NCBI RefSeq assembly: GCF_900168265.1
Contig: NZ_FVZF01000026.1
Location: forward strand, 1 to 60,899
Direction of reading: 5' to 3'
Source: Salegentibacter salarius
GTDB lineage: Bacteria; Bacteroidota; Bacteroidia; Flavobacteriales; Flavobacteriaceae
DNA: 60,899 bases
In this document: piece by piece, positions 1,289 to 60,899 of the stretch
Position numbering within the stretch: the stretch's first letter is position 1
Layout of the letters: each line of letters starts with the position of its first letter
The notes under the pieces: model-generated
Seen by the model: the letters and a program-made list of their open reading frames with translations, nothing else
What the model was told of the DNA's origin: nothing
Databases searched by the model: none
Program-made: the position numbers and the translations under genes

Positions 1289-1416
1289 TAGGCTGTTTGA
1301 GTAGTATCGTATTCGTCAAGCTGAACTGGTTTCAGCTTCTAATGTTTCAAATTAATAACAAGTTAGATCCTGAAATAAATTCAGGATGACGTCTCAGAGA
1401 TTTTTCAAACAGCCTA
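1289..1416 (-). terminator. Terminator-like stem for gltX with a repeat element in its loop
   Basis: TAGGCTGTTTGA (1289-1300) and TCAAACAGCCTA (1405-1416) form a perfect 12-bp inverted repeat. Read on the minus strand, downstream of gltX, the stem is followed by a T-rich tract (ATTTTTTG), the layout of an intrinsic terminator. The loop is about 104 bases and is filled by the two-hairpin repeat at 1314-1391, which is far larger than a normal terminator loop. Confidence 0.6.
1314..1391 (+). repeat. Two-hairpin interspersed repeat, copy 1
   Basis: Arm A (1314-1341) begins CGTCA and contains the small hairpin AGCTGAA/TTCAGCT; arm B (1364-1391) contains TCCTGAA/TTCAGGA and ends TGACG. The two arms are imperfect reverse complements of each other (outer CGTCA/TGACG and TCTA/TAGA match). 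Related copies lie at 10897-10966, 31360-31428 and 49913-50015, all in the same orientation and all behind gene 3' ends. Confidence 0.85.
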
Positions 1417-10107: not shown

Positions 10108-10334
10108 AAAACGTGTTTTAAGCGCGTTTAAGACTGTTTTGACTTCATTATAATATACAATCAGGTTTATTTTGAGAAATAAGCTTATTTTTAAGCTATT
10201 TAATTCATTTTTCATCTATTAAACTTATCGTTATAATTTTATACATAAGAATTTCTTATATATACTTCATAAGTCTGTTTTGATTTAAATCGAAAATTTA
10301 ACTTTCATACATTTGCGGCAAACAAATTCAATTA
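10108..10334. other. 227-base intergenic region before the OmpH-like gene
   Basis: Very AT-rich, with no ORF and no clear terminator hairpin after the methyltransferase. It ends in TACATTTG (10308-10315), an exact TAnnTTTG -7 box 19 bases upstream of the OmpH-like gene's ATG at 10335; a TTTTG about 25 bases before it is rather far for a -33 element. Confidence 0.5.
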
Positions 10335-10850
10335 ATGATGAAAAAACTTTTAATGATTTTGGTAGTTGCTGTTTTGCTTACTTCCTGTGACCAGGAAAAA
10401 ACGGCTTATGTAGATACCACAAAACTTATCCAGGAGTACAAAGAAATGAAAGATGTTGAAGCTGACTTTACTTCTAAATCAGATTCGGTAAAAAGACAAT
10501 TAGATTCTATTGCCAGAGGATTTCAGCAGGAAGTTCAGGCTTACCAACAGGAAATGAATTCTATGTCTCAGGCGCAACGCCAGGAAAAAGAGCAGGAATT
10601 AATGCAGAAGCAGCAAAGAATCCAACAGCAACAGCAAATGCAAGGTAGTCGCCTTAGAGAGCAGAGCGATGCTGTTATAGATTCTATTGTAGATAAAGTT
10701 AAGGATTATGTAGCTGATTATGGTGAAGAGAATGGCTACACCTATATTTTTGGTTCTAACGAGTCTGCCAATATTATGTATGCGAAAGATGGGAAAGATC
10801 TAACCCAGGAAATTCTTGATAATTTGAATGAAACTTATAACAAGAACTAG
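10335..10850 (+). CDS. OmpH/Skp-family periplasmic chaperone, lipoprotein
   Basis: A 171-residue protein with the signal peptide MMKKLLMILVVAVLLTSC, whose lipobox Cys is residue 18, followed by DTTKLIQEYKEMKD (the OmpH start) and a long Gln/Glu-rich coiled coil (about 45-115) as in Skp tentacles. Skp-type proteins hold unfolded outer-membrane proteins in the periplasm; a lipidated version would be tethered to a membrane. It stands alone, with its own -7 box upstream and a strong inverted-repeat terminator downstream. Confidence 0.85.
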   Translation: MMKKLLMILVVAVLLTSCDQEKTAYVDTTKLIQEYKEMKDVEADFTSKSDSVKRQLDSIARGFQQEVQAYQQEMNSMSQAQRQEKEQELMQKQQRIQQQQQMQGSRLREQSDAVIDSIVDKVKDYVADYGEENGYTYIFGSNESANIMYAKDGKDLTQEILDNLNETYNKN

Positions 10851-10870
10851 GCTTAAGTTCTGAGTTTTTA

Positions 10871-10993
10871 AAAAAGGTCTGAGAAGCCATTCTTTTCGTC
10901 AAGCTGAACTTGTTTCAGCTTCTAAGTTAATTTTAACCTAGATCCTGAAATAAATTTAGGATGACGAGTTTAGAAAACTTCTCAGACCTTTTT
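10871..10993. terminator. Bidirectional terminator stem with a repeat element in its loop
   Basis: AAAAAGGTCTGAGAAG (10871-10886) and CTTCTCAGACCTTTTT (10978-10993) are a perfect 16-bp inverted repeat with A and T tracts on the outside, serving the convergent OmpH-like (+) and DoxX (-) genes. The 91-base loop contains a complete two-hairpin repeat (10897-10966). Confidence 0.75.
10897..10966 (+). repeat. Two-hairpin interspersed repeat, copy 2
   Basis: Arm A 10897-10924 (hairpin AGCTGAA/TTCAGCT), arm B 10939-10966 (TCCTGAA/TTTAGGA, one C-to-T change that leaves a G-U pair). The outer ends are CGTCA and TGACG, as in copy 1. It is the most compact copy, with only 14 bases between arms. Confidence 0.85.
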
Positions 10994-10998
10994 CTATT

Positions 10999-11394
10999 TT
11001 AAGACATTAAGTAAACTCCAAAGATCACTACGATAAAGTAACCGGTTAATGTAAAGGCACCGGCGTAATCTTTAGCAATTCTTTGTCCGAATAATAACAT
11101 TAAAAGGGTGATAGCAGCCAGGATGCAAGCGTAAAGCGCTATTGCAGGATCATTATAAGCGATTAGCCATATTATTCCCAGGATAGTGGCAAAACCTGTA
11201 ATGATTTCAATTATCATTATTATTCCTACCATAAGCGGCACCTGCCCGGCAAGAAATGTTCCTGAAAAGTGCTCTTTTAACCAACCGGTATTTCCTTTCC
11301 AGTCGGCAGCTTTATCTATTCCAGACTGTAAAAATGTAATTAGAATAAATAATAGAATAAGAAGTTCGGTAATATTCGCGTAAAGGTTCTCCAT
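10999..11394 (-). CDS. DoxX-like integral membrane protein
   Basis: A 131-residue, four-helix membrane protein with the DoxX-family pattern: helix 1 ITELLILLFILITFLQSGIDK, then KGNTGWLKEHFSGT, then three further helices to the C-terminus. DoxX relatives are linked to quinone or thiosulfate metabolism in some species, but the substrate cannot be inferred here. It lies 4 bases after the end of the delta' gene on the same strand, so the two are probably co-transcribed. Confidence 0.75.
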   Translation of the reverse strand: MENLYANITELLILLFILITFLQSGIDKAADWKGNTGWLKEHFSGTFLAGQVPLMVGIIMIIEIITGFATILGIIWLIAYNDPAIALYACILAAITLLMLLFGQRIAKDYAGAFTLTGYFIVVIFGVYLMS

Positions 11395-11398
11395 AATT

Positions 11399-12553
11399 TT
11401 AAGTGGCTTTTTTATGTAAATATCGGGTTAGTCTTATAGAAAGATCGGTGAGTATAATTTTTGCATTTCCGTTTCTTTCAATATGATAAATGGCTTCTTC
11501 AAGAGCTTCAATAATATCTTTTATATTATTACCATGAACAAAGGGCGCAAATTTCTCCAGTTTAAATCCAGGCGTTGCCGGTTCAAGATAGACCAGGTTT
11601 TCGGCTTTATAATTCAGCATTAAGGCCTGGCGGAAAAAATCTATGCAATACAATAAAAAACTCTTTTGAGATTCCCTGCCCATTCCTGCAATTTCTTCGC
11701 TCCAGGCAATAAGTTCAAGAACCGTAGATCGATTTCCTTTAGCTTTAAATGCACTACGCACCCAATTGATAAACCAGGTTTCAAATTGCTGATCTCCGCT
11801 ATCTTTTTGTAATAAATGCAAAGCGCGGGTATAACTACCATTGGCCTGGTGGGCAATTTTTAAAGCTTCAGGTTTACTACAATTTTCATTCTTTTCTAAA
11901 AATGCGGCAATTTCATCTTCCGGTAAAGGAGGGAAATGCAGTTTTTGGCAACGAGACCTTATGGTTTGTATAATTTGTTCTTCATCTTCGGTAACTAGAA
12001 GAAAAAGGGTATTGTTTGGTGGTTCTTCTATTAATTTCAACAATTTATTTGCAGCCGCAGTATTCATCTTTTCGGCCATCCAAATGATCATTATTTTAAA
12101 TCCGCCTTCGTAAGCTTTTAAGGAAAGGGATTTAACCACTTCCTGTGCTTCATCTACACCAATTTGACCTTGTTTATTTTCAATTCCAAGTTTTTGGTAC
12201 CATTCAAATAAACTTCCGTAGGGATTGGTTTTTACAAATTCCCGCCATTCTTCTAAAAAGTGAGAGGAAACAGGATGTTTTTTTATTTTTTGATTGGCAG
12301 CAACGGGAAATGCAAAATGAAGATCGGGATGCGCCAATTTTTTAAATCGTTCATTACAATTACTGTTTCCAGTATTGTTTTCTCCTTCCGTATTTTTACA
12401 AAGTATGTATTGCGCGTAAGCAATGGCCAGAGGCAAAGTACCACTACCACTTTTTCCTACAAATAACTGCGCGTGCGGAACACGGCCATTATCTGCAGTA
12501 GTAGTAAGATGTTTCTTTAAATGCTGTAAACCTATTATTTCTTCAAAAAGCAT
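11399..12553 (-). CDS. holB: DNA polymerase III subunit delta' (clamp-loader ATPase-like)
   Basis: A 384-residue AAA+ clamp-loader protein. The N-terminus FEEIIGLQHLKKHLTTTADNGRVPHAQLFVG, the block HPDLHFAFPV, EEPPNNTLFLLVTED and the sensor IIQTIRSRCQKLHFPPL identify delta'. The Walker A position is degenerate (GKSGSGTLPLA, with Thr in place of the Lys), as expected for delta', which does not hydrolyse ATP. The four-Cys zinc module is incomplete (only Cys near CKNTEGENNTGNSNC). The frame could begin at a TTG two codons earlier; I chose the ATG at 12553. Confidence 0.93.
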   Translation of the reverse strand: MLFEEIIGLQHLKKHLTTTADNGRVPHAQLFVGKSGSGTLPLAIAYAQYILCKNTEGENNTGNSNCNERFKKLAHPDLHFAFPVAANQKIKKHPVSSHFLEEWREFVKTNPYGSLFEWYQKLGIENKQGQIGVDEAQEVVKSLSLKAYEGGFKIMIIWMAEKMNTAAANKLLKLIEEPPNNTLFLLVTEDEEQIIQTIRSRCQKLHFPPLPEDEIAAFLEKNENCSKPEALKIAHQANGSYTRALHLLQKDSGDQQFETWFINWVRSAFKAKGNRSTVLELIAWSEEIAGMGRESQKSFLLYCIDFFRQALMLNYKAENLVYLEPATPGFKLEKFAPFVHGNNIKDIIEALEEAIYHIERNGNAKIILTDLSIRLTRYLHKKAT

Positions 12554-31359: not shown

Positions 31360-31428
31360 CGTCAAGCTGAACTTGTTTCATCTTCTAGTATGTTAATCGT
31401 TAGATCCTGAAACAAGTTCAGGATGACG
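31360..31428 (+). repeat. Two-hairpin interspersed repeat, copy 3
   Basis: Arm A 31360-31387 (AGCTGAA/TTCATCT, one changed base) and arm B 31401-31428 (TCCTGAA/TTCAGGA), with CGTCA and TGACG ends. It lies in the convergent region between the GT9 gene and the prolyl oligopeptidase gene. The flanks (AAAAAGGAATGG and AACCCTTTTT) are only weakly complementary, unlike copies 1 and 2. Confidence 0.85.
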
Positions 31429-31471
31429 TAGAGTAATTCAAAACCCTTTTTAGTTATTCTTACTTATAAAA

Positions 31472-31503
31472 AAACCTCACAGTTTTTAAAAACTGTGAGG
31501 TTT
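31472..31503. terminator. Perfect 32-base palindrome, bidirectional terminator
   Basis: AAACCTCACAGTTTTT followed at once by AAAAACTGTGAGGTTT, a 16-bp stem with no spacer, between convergent GT9 (+) and prolyl oligopeptidase (-) genes. Its CCTCACAG core is shared with palindromes at 34954-34975 and 44440-44474. Confidence 0.75.
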
Positions 31504-31521
31504 GAGTTAAGATAAAAAAGT

Positions 31522-49692: not shown

Positions 49693-49902
49693 CAAAACCA
49701 CCGTTTTTCGCGGTGGTTTTTTTGTTTCCGAACTTTTTCATTTTCAAAATATTGAGAGCTGGCTAGTGCGTCCCGATGCAAGATCGGGAAGGCCATCGGT
49801 TCCTCAGACGGCTCGGGGCGATATTCTCCACAAAACCACCGTTTTCGCGGTGGTTTTTTTGTTCCCGAACTTTTTCATTTTTAAAATAATGAAAGCTGGC
49901 TA
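49681..49902 (+). repeat. Tandem duplication containing a decayed tRNA-Ala copy
   Basis: An 85-base direct repeat occurs at 49681-49765 and 49819-49902: the tRNA 3' end (CGATATTCTCCACA), terminator hairpin, GAACTTTTTCATTTT and an AGCTGGCTA remnant of a tRNA D arm. Between them, 49754-49829 is a broken tRNA: D-arm AGCTGGCTA, then TCCCGAT-gcaag-ATCGGGA in place of the anticodon arm, GGCCATCGGTTC, an insertion in the T loop and a normal 3' end. The unit was tRNA plus terminator, repeated twice and part of a third time. Confidence 0.75.
49694..49723 (+). terminator. Terminator of tRNA-Ala
   Basis: AAAACCACCG (49694-49703) and CGGTGGTTTT (49711-49720) with a T7 run. A second copy of the same hairpin, one T shorter in the loop, lies at about 49832-49860 as part of the tandem duplication. 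Confidence 0.85.
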
Positions 49903-49912
49903 AAATGGTTTT

Positions 49913-50015
49913 CGTCAAGCTGAACTTGTTTCAGACTTTATCCCGAATTTGCTTCGGGATTCTATTATGTCTAGATTATCAAAATATTAGATTCTGAACT
50001 AAATTCAGAATGACG
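49913..50015 (+). repeat. Two-hairpin interspersed repeat, copy 4, with an extra hairpin
   Basis: Arm A starts at 49913 (CGTCAAGCTGAACTTG...), arm B is 49988-50015 and ends TGACG. Arm B carries paired changes: TTCTGAA/TTCAGAA instead of TCCTGAA/TTCAGGA. Between the arms is a third hairpin, TCCCGAA-tttgc-TTCGGGA (49941-49959), related to the one at 24364-24379. Confidence 0.8.
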
Positions 50016-60552: not shown

Positions 60553-60581
60553 TAATTAATTATTTCTATATAAATTAAAAG

Positions 60582-60608
60582 AGGCTGTCTGAAAAGGCAG
60601 CCTTTTTT
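60582..60608 (+). terminator. Terminator of sodB
   Basis: AGGCTGTCT-gaaa-AGGCAGCCT with a T6 run; the one irregular pair is U-G in the plus-strand RNA. It also marks the left border region of the IS element that follows. Confidence 0.8.
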
Positions 60609-60644
60609 GTTGTATTATTTTCTGGTTTTTAGTATTTTCATGTA

Positions 60645-60899
60645 ATGAAAGCCAAAGCAGTATTTAAGACCTATGACCAGTCGCAGTTAAGTCTTTTACC
60701 TCCCAGTTATGATGATCTGGTCCCTGCCCATCATCCCGTTAGGATCGTCAATACGATTATTGATCAAATCGACATCGCTGACCTAGAGCGAAGTTATAAA
60801 GGAGGAGGTACCTCCAGTTACCATCCCCGGATGTTGCTCAAGGTGACCATCTATGCGTACCTTCGCAATATGTATTCCTCTCGTAAAATTGAGCAGGCC
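60645..60899 (+). CDS. IS1182-family transposase, N-terminal part cut by the window edge
   Basis: The first 85 codons read MKAKAVFKTYDQSQLSLLPP, then DLVPAHHPVRIVNTIIDQID and SYHPRMLLKVTIYAYLRNMYSSRKIEQA, the DUF772 N-terminus of IS1182/IS1380-like DDE transposases. The reading frame is intact to the end of the window. The inverted repeat should lie between the sodB terminator and 60645, but I cannot define it without the other end. Confidence 0.9.
   Translation, partial: MKAKAVFKTYDQSQLSLLPPSYDDLVPAHHPVRIVNTIIDQIDIADLERSYKGGGTSSYHPRMLLKVTIYAYLRNMYSSRKIEQA

Follow-up and report, generated by a model that had tools for sequence, protein, structure and literature searches.

CGTC-tagged REP heterodimers in the loops of terminator-like stems at gene ends of Salegentibacter salarius

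Introduction

The closest described counterparts of the element considered here are the CGTC-tagged REPs. In the sections at hand of Di Nocera et al. (2013; PMC3733652), CGTC-2 REPs have 8-bp stems and 5-nt loops and form inverted dimers; heterodimers prevail in CGTC-2 and CGTC-3, no dedicated transposase is found, and the Bacteroidetes and G. forsetii are among the carriers of CGTC REPs. The same sections describe REP dimers inside longer palindromes in H. neapolitanus (CGTC-1) and A. variabilis (GTAG-15). The GTAG REPs, BIMEs and REPINs that go with a RAYT likewise consist of small hairpins in inverted pairs, scattered between genes, and MITEs of DDE insertion sequences (ISs) resemble the present element in having IS-like terminal inverted repeats, a length of about 150 bp and no coding capacity. 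A different kind of precedent is inverted-repeat template switching, which, in the part at hand of Abraham and Hazkani-Covo (2021; PMC8604942), leads to arm homogenisation and spacer inversion in yeast.

The window, i.e., the whole stretch of 60,899 nucleotides of S. salarius DNA that was analysed, contains four inverted pairs of CGTC-tagged REPs that follow the published CGTC-2 pattern. The class of the element is thus already known, as the sections of PMC3733652 at hand describe the same CGTC-2 anatomy, inverted dimers, heterodimers and enclosing palindromes. The setting departs somewhat from the published one, and what most deserves attention is that loops are inverted and exchanged while the stems around them are conserved. 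On balance, we consider it probable that the composite, of about 120-150 bp, is a putative bidirectional terminator at gene ends that carries a CGTC-2 heterodimer in its loop and evolves by template switching.

Anatomy of the composite and of its copies in the window

An OmpH-like gene and a converging ORF have their 3' ends on either side of the composite at 10871-10993. Its parts, delimited in the sequence, and its neighbours are:

10335-10850, plus strand: OmpH-like periplasmic chaperone gene upstream of the composite (Pfam OmpH PF03938, E 1.2e-30)
10871-10886, plus strand: left arm of the enclosing stem with the outer A tract, a perfect 16-nt pair with 10978-10993
10897-10924, plus strand: REP unit 1, with CGTC tag, 8-bp stem AAGCTGAA/TTCAGCTT, 5-nt loop CTTGT and tail CTA
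10925-10938, no strand: inter-unit spacer
10939-10966, minus strand: REP unit 2 in inverse orientation, with outermost CGTC tag, 5-nt loop and tail CTA
10978-10993, plus strand: right arm of the enclosing stem with the outer T tract, pairing with 10871-10886
10999-11394, minus strand: converging ORF of 131 aa without Pfam match (from the ORF list and Pfam)

A first, sequence-only reading had described a perfect 16-bp inverted repeat with outer A and T tracts, enclosing a two-hairpin element with CGTCA/TGACG ends that recurs at 1314, 31360 and 49913, and each of these points is confirmed. The arms are separated by 91 nt, and the two-hairpin element occupies 70 bp (10897-10966), with the two units inverted relative to each other and the tags outside. 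Read on the plus strand, the stem of unit 2 is ATCCTGAA/TTTAGGAT. The paired changes reported between unit 1 (AG..CT) and unit 2 (TC..GA) indeed leave each small hairpin paired, with one wobble in unit 2 of the 10897 copy (TTTAGGA for TTCAGGA).

T and A tracts flank this stem on both sides at a gene 3' end, as in an intrinsic terminator; long flanking tracts are absent from some other composite copies. Where two genes end towards each other, a hairpin bordered by A and T tracts has the look of a bidirectional terminator, and the stem most probably is an intrinsic-type terminator on both strands. Against this reading stands the 91-nt loop, which greatly exceeds the loops of ordinary intrinsic terminators; a terminator scan of 10300-11450 with loops of 3-8 did not pick up the composite. 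In its favour, the scan showed no competing terminator-like site in this interval. The predicted RNA of 10871-10993 is a single long hairpin (-55.4 kcal/mol), and an Rfam search of the window found only a tRNA, so that the composite matches no RNA family there.

The other copies in the window are:

1289-1300, plus strand: left arm of the stem around the 1314 copy (TAGGCTGTTTGA; from sequence and folding)
1314-1391, plus strand: second REP heterodimer, within the stem, 3' of the minus-strand gene 1442-2983
1405-1416, plus strand: right arm of the stem around the 1314 copy (TCAAACAGCCTA; from sequence and folding)
31360-31428, plus strand: third REP heterodimer, in a convergent gap, without strong enclosing stem
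49913-50015, plus strand: fourth REP heterodimer, the first unit of which contains a nested CCCGAA..TTCGGG hairpin, without strong enclosing stem

The gene at 1442-2983 encodes glutamyl/glutaminyl-tRNA synthetase domains. A stem is called strong where the outer flanks pair at below -20 kcal/mol; the outer duplex energies are -25.7 (1314), -27.2 (10897), -10.2 (31360) and -9.2 (49913). Placement in the loop of a terminator-like stem therefore applies to the 1314 and 10897 copies, while at 31360 and 49913 the enclosure is only weak. CCCGAAG..CTTCGGG-type hairpins lie inside REP hairpins at 49913-50015, at loci L103, L020 and L014, and in the ortholog of locus L088 in the relative genome G014, so that insertion of a hairpin into a loop seems to recur at a smaller scale.

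Elsewhere in the window, the stretch GGTGGTTTTTTTGTT..CCGAACTTTTTCATTTT..AGCTGGCTA is tandemly present twice at about 49700-49880, downstream of tRNA-Ala. Positions 1-290 have no counterpart in the G014 alignment, which starts at about 291; this segment may be the end of an integrase-type IS gene, which it resembles.

Copy number, REP class and pairing of unlike units

The element is dispersed in the genome and in the genus. Half 1 is found exactly at 58 places of the 3.33-Mb genome and the exact consensus of half 2 at 57, from which the 10897 copy is missing as it differs by one base; a degenerate half-unit with at most one mismatch occurs at 231 places, and the reversed-pattern controls gave 0 in all three cases. 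The proposal of a dispersed element of REP/BIME kind is thus borne out. A search of the plasmid collection gave no match.

The units have the anatomy of CGTC-2 REPs. In particular, 1.6 Mb of G014 contain 48 CGTCNNNCTGAA sites, of which 32 have a perfect 8-bp stem and 16 an imperfect one. Among the 32 perfect units the loop has 5 nt in 31, the 3-nt tail is CTA in 31, and the first two stem positions are A-T in 29 if AA and AT are both counted, the other 3 beginning with AC. An unpaired CGTC lies at one end of the unit in both the G014 and the own-genome sites. The CTA reading of the 3-nt tail, itself constant in the G014 units, differs from the CCA of most published CGTC REPs, as given in the sections of PMC3733652 at hand, from which the tag, the 8-bp stem, the 5-nt loop, the head-to-head (HH) heterodimers, the location in convergent or unidirectional gene gaps and the lack of a dedicated transposase are all familiar. 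The 5-nt loops of the G014 units are mostly CTTGT (13) or TTTAT (9), so that loop positions 1 and 4 covary as C/G or T/A; this coupling may extend the hairpin, leaving a bulged T.

Dimers are almost exclusively built from unlike halves. The own-genome sample comprises the first 30 of the 58 half-1 places, the first 30 of the 57 half-2 places and the window; it yielded 45 dimers, six of which (the 1314 copy, recorded under L091, included) come from loci fetched by the outer-arm pattern and are left out of the 39 counted here. Minus-strand locus rows, such as L125 and L127-L130, were not used in the locus reading. Heterodimers make up 38 of the 39; the single homodimer compares with 31% expected by random pairing, a value as low being reached in 0 of 20,000 permutations, and its second unit (L056) is degenerate. 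In 1.2 Mb of G014, 44 units form 14 HH and 0 TT dimers, with 16 units unpaired; all 14 dimers are heterodimers, which alone is not significant with 19% homodimers expected (P 0.07). Unlike partners would be kept either because a perfect long palindrome is unstable or because separate hairpins are needed.

At L057, the own genome has a CGTC dimer; the corresponding gene end of G014 bears a short GTCATTTCCGCGGAAGCGGAAATC-like hairpin instead, perhaps another REP type.

Position relative to genes

REP clusters are biased to gene 3' ends and to convergent gaps. Of the 38 clusters of G014, 19 occupy convergent and 19 unidirectional gaps, with none in a divergent one, as against 110 convergent, 439 unidirectional and 172 divergent gaps in a background of 721 (binomial P 5.6e-7 and 3.2e-5; gap classes rest on a simple ORF caller). 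The 48 loci of the own-genome sample, classed in the same way, include 22 convergent and 22 unidirectional gaps, i.e., the CGTC-2 placement in 44 of 48, together with 2 divergent gaps, 1 locus within an ORF and 1 without assignable class.

The enclosing stem

Strong enclosing stems are enriched around the dimers of S. salarius. They surround 14 of the 39 own-genome dimers, one of which (L046) is an artefact in which neighbouring REP units provide the pairing, vs 116 of 3000 random places in G014 and 194 of 2279 swapped-partner pairs. The remaining 25 of the 39 are without strong stem. In G014 itself a strong stem surrounds just 4 of the 14 dimers, and their median of -9.3 does not improve on that of random places (-11.3); enclosure is therefore enriched yet partial. 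Copies chosen for alignment (20) give the outer-arm consensus GAGGCTGTTTGAAAAG, and their linkers are also similar.

A closely similar stem also exists on its own. G014 has plain, REP-free hairpins built on such a stem at site C18 and at several more places; the underlying stem scan is loose (145 matches vs 115 for the reversed control), and its perfect short-loop hairpins serve as examples only. This sets the present case apart from the CGTC-2 REPs of PMC3733652, as some of the dimers here are enclosed by a terminator-like stem of which REP-free examples exist. Likewise, the palindromes of H. neapolitanus and A. variabilis enclose a dimer as they do here, but in the sections of that paper at hand they are not found without REPs.

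The first reading had also taken the paired changes as the pattern expected if the two-hairpin form, and not the long cruciform, is selected. DNA parameters put the branched form slightly ahead of the long one (-12.1 vs -10.7 for 10897, -16.2 vs -13.1 for 1314), whereas with RNA parameters the long form leads (-26.8 vs -21.3 and -25.0 vs -22.1, respectively). The two forms being close in energy and their order differing between RNA and DNA, the energies do not single out one of them as the selected form. Moreover, template switching homogenises arms without selection (PMC8604942, part at hand), which together with these energies weakens a selective reading of the paired changes.

A similar situation is present for covariation. 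In alignment A1, 12 of 16 outer pairs have changed on both sides; A1 comprises 20 of the 45 dimers, chosen partly for pairing (32 were short and had AG with TC or TT, 23 had an outer energy below -13, and L003, L042 and L009 were dropped). The small hairpins of the 20 rows hardly vary, with 7/7 and 5/7 pairs invariant. As template switching gives the same pattern without selection, again according to the part of PMC8604942 at hand, covariation here is no proof of selection.

Orthologous sites: a kept stem and a changing loop

At orthologous sites the stem persists while the loop is inverted, exchanged, reduced or missing. The named relatives that come closest at the OmpH gene belong to Salegentibacter. 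At the OmpH site, S. salarius, L100, L101 and G014 share one orientation, with a direct identity to S. salarius of 0.97 for L100 and 0.96 for L101. L103 and L104 have conserved arms, between which the loop together with its linkers is inverted (identity 0.80 inverted vs 0.63 direct, and 0.88 vs 0.70). Only the left half remains in L102, and in genome G010 the same stem holds just a short CGTC..GACG remnant. L105 has a different stem with a different REP family, and plain terminators occupy the site in L106 and in Christiangramia loci such as L108.

The 1314 site, compared between anchored flanks, could be scored in 4 of 7 relatives (no loop was obtained from G004 or G012, and that of G005 was too long): the loop is inverted in G010 (0.83 vs 0.61 direct) and G009 (0.74 vs 0.63), and direct in G014 and G002. 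Read by eye, the same outer arm ends hold a GTCATTGCGA-type REP in G012, and a longer compound insert is present in G005.

Among 15 genomes compared at C18, a stem of the AGCT/GGCT..AGCC/AGCT kind is present in 9 and the other 6 differ. Its loop is a dimer of one orientation in S. salarius and G009 and, judged by eye, of the opposite one in G010, G013 and G004; it is a single unit in G002, a remnant in G012, long and REP-free in G005, and 5 nt in G014. At site C20, out of 11 genomes, S. salarius, G012 and G010 have the composite, with the loop exactly inverted in the latter two (0.92 inverted vs 0.67 and 0.66 direct). G014 has an unrelated plain terminator there. In G002, G004, G007, G009, G011 and G013 a similar A tract is followed by CCTC-type palindromes, of which none was recognised in G005.

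At L088, the stems of S. salarius and G014 differ at several positions and both pair well. Not every site moves: the orientation is shared with G014 at L016, at L049 (at 1049), at L027 and at the window copy 49913. In these comparisons no target-site duplication was recognised around the composites, and one clean loop-only difference (C18) was found. A search of the open-access literature turned up neither an account of loop inversion in REP-bearing terminators nor the 15-mer CTGAACTTGTTTCAG; loop inversion or exchange between species likewise sets the present dimers apart from the CGTC-2 REPs in the sections of PMC3733652 at hand, which hold no account of it.

Matched arms that differ between species and inverted loops are the two products of template switching (PMC8604942, part at hand), which is why we propose this process. 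DNA polymerase switching between the outer arms would keep them matched and would flip the loop. Arm homogenisation and spacer inversion are common to both systems; the published cases, in the part at hand, concern yeast coding DNA and spacers of a few bases, while here the spacers have about 90-100 bases and lie at bacterial gene ends.

Alternative explanations

The first and main alternative is that the whole composite is a MITE of an IS, which we take to be IS1182-like from the look of its transposase and ends. Its arms would be terminal inverted repeats served in trans by a DDE transposase, with the REP dimer as cargo. The relevant feature in the window is:

60581-60899, plus strand: left end of the IS, with terminal GAGGCTGTCTGAAAAG resembling the outer-arm consensus GAGGCTGTTTGAAAAG

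Terminal inverted repeats in common with the IS are indeed found, in the stem-bearing copies only. The 14-mer GGCTGTTTGAAAAG occurs with at most 2 mismatches at 113 places vs 35 for the reversed pattern, in the complete IS copies L177 and L178 both ends bear similar hairpins and DDE domains are present, and about 20 dispersed own-genome copies have common arms and linkers. C20 also fits, as three genomes have the composite at an A tract where others have unrelated hairpins. The resemblance of the outer-arm consensus to the IS ends, the hairpins at both ends of the IS and the start of the IS at the G014 terminator would be in keeping with a MITE origin. Unlike in MITEs, however, no target duplication was identified in any comparison, the stem occurs alone (REP-free hairpins with a very similar stem being present at C18 and several more places in G014), and half or more of the dimers have no stem, the strong stem missing in 25 of the 39 sampled. 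Dependence on a resident IS can be set aside: the IS is matched in 10 of 15 genus genomes, and G010, G012 and G014 have no IS match yet at least 52 composite matches each. Taken together, we judge the MITE explanation unlikely.

Two observations concern the IS itself. It has 14 matches in the own genome, many of them at contig ends, so that the assembly breaks at this IS, at the end of the window as well as elsewhere. Its left end (60581) starts exactly at a plain terminator of G014.

A second alternative, to which we give little credence, is that a RAYT-like or other enzyme inserts REP dimers into existing hairpin loops, terminators being the commonest target. It would account for the plain terminator of G014 at C18, where S. 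salarius has a like stem filled with a dimer, for the different REP families in the same stem at 1314 and for the further hairpins nested in REP hairpin loops, and the REP dimers within palindromes of other genera offer a precedent (PMC3733652, sections at hand). On the other side, most close relatives carry REP or remnants at C18, so that the plain state of G014 may be a loss, and the linkers are common to dispersed copies and invert together with the dimer.

The enzyme is a further difficulty. Mobilisation of RAYT/IS200 type had been suggested, and a REP-associated Y1 gene was accordingly looked for; the genome has one such gene:

L062:6228-6797: Y1-type transposase gene, the only one of the genome (Pfam Y1_Tnp)

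Both of its sides are flanked by the palindrome GACCTCACAGGT..ACCTGTGAGGTC, different from the CGTC REP, so that no transposase gene is flanked by the CGTC REP as far as this single Y1 gene goes. The protein scores 51.1 bits vs the NCBIfam REP-transposase cut-off of 80, the nearest CGTC dimer is about 3.9 kb away, and a search for relatives of solved structure gave nothing meaningful (best E 0.17). Among 60 relatives, matches to the composite model are found in 25 and matches to Y1_Tnp in 31; 8 of the 25 are without Y1_Tnp match, and one of these, G004, has at least 52 composite matches. RAYT mobilisation is therefore not supported. The arrangement also departs from that of GTAG REPs, BIMEs and REPINs and of a REPtron, in which a GTAG tag goes with a RAYT gene flanked by the REP: here the units carry a CGTC tag, and CCTCACAGGT palindromes stand on both sides of the Y1 gene. 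The window has one member of the GACCTCACAGGT..ACCTGTGAGGTC palindrome family at 31468-31504, and CCTC palindromes related to the Y1-flanking family occupy the terminator position at C20 in several relatives.

Finally, a role as a structured 3'-end RNA under selection for one particular branched fold (e.g., for mRNA-end protection or protein binding) is very improbable: the compensatory changes of the outer stem, the bias to gene 3' ends and the stable predicted RNA fold would agree with it, but as RNA the long hairpin is more stable than the branched form, no Rfam family matches, and loops at orthologous sites are inverted, replaced or absent, so that no such fold is kept.

Biological meaning

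Template switching at a putative terminator that carries a CGTC-2 heterodimer is the reading we prefer for the composite. A wider and more tentative idea, which we advance as speculation, is that terminator hairpins are standing docks: the stem would be kept, and palindromic repeats would be flipped, exchanged, nested and expelled by a process that recognises hairpin loops, be it template switching or hairpin-loop-specific insertion. One consequence is a warning, as compensatory changes in a stem of this kind are not by themselves a sign of selection on RNA when template switching between arms mimics them. The orthologous sites with a kept stem and a flipped, exchanged or absent REP loop are natural experiments and, if true, the idea of standing docks would fill the present gap in how CGTC REPs move.
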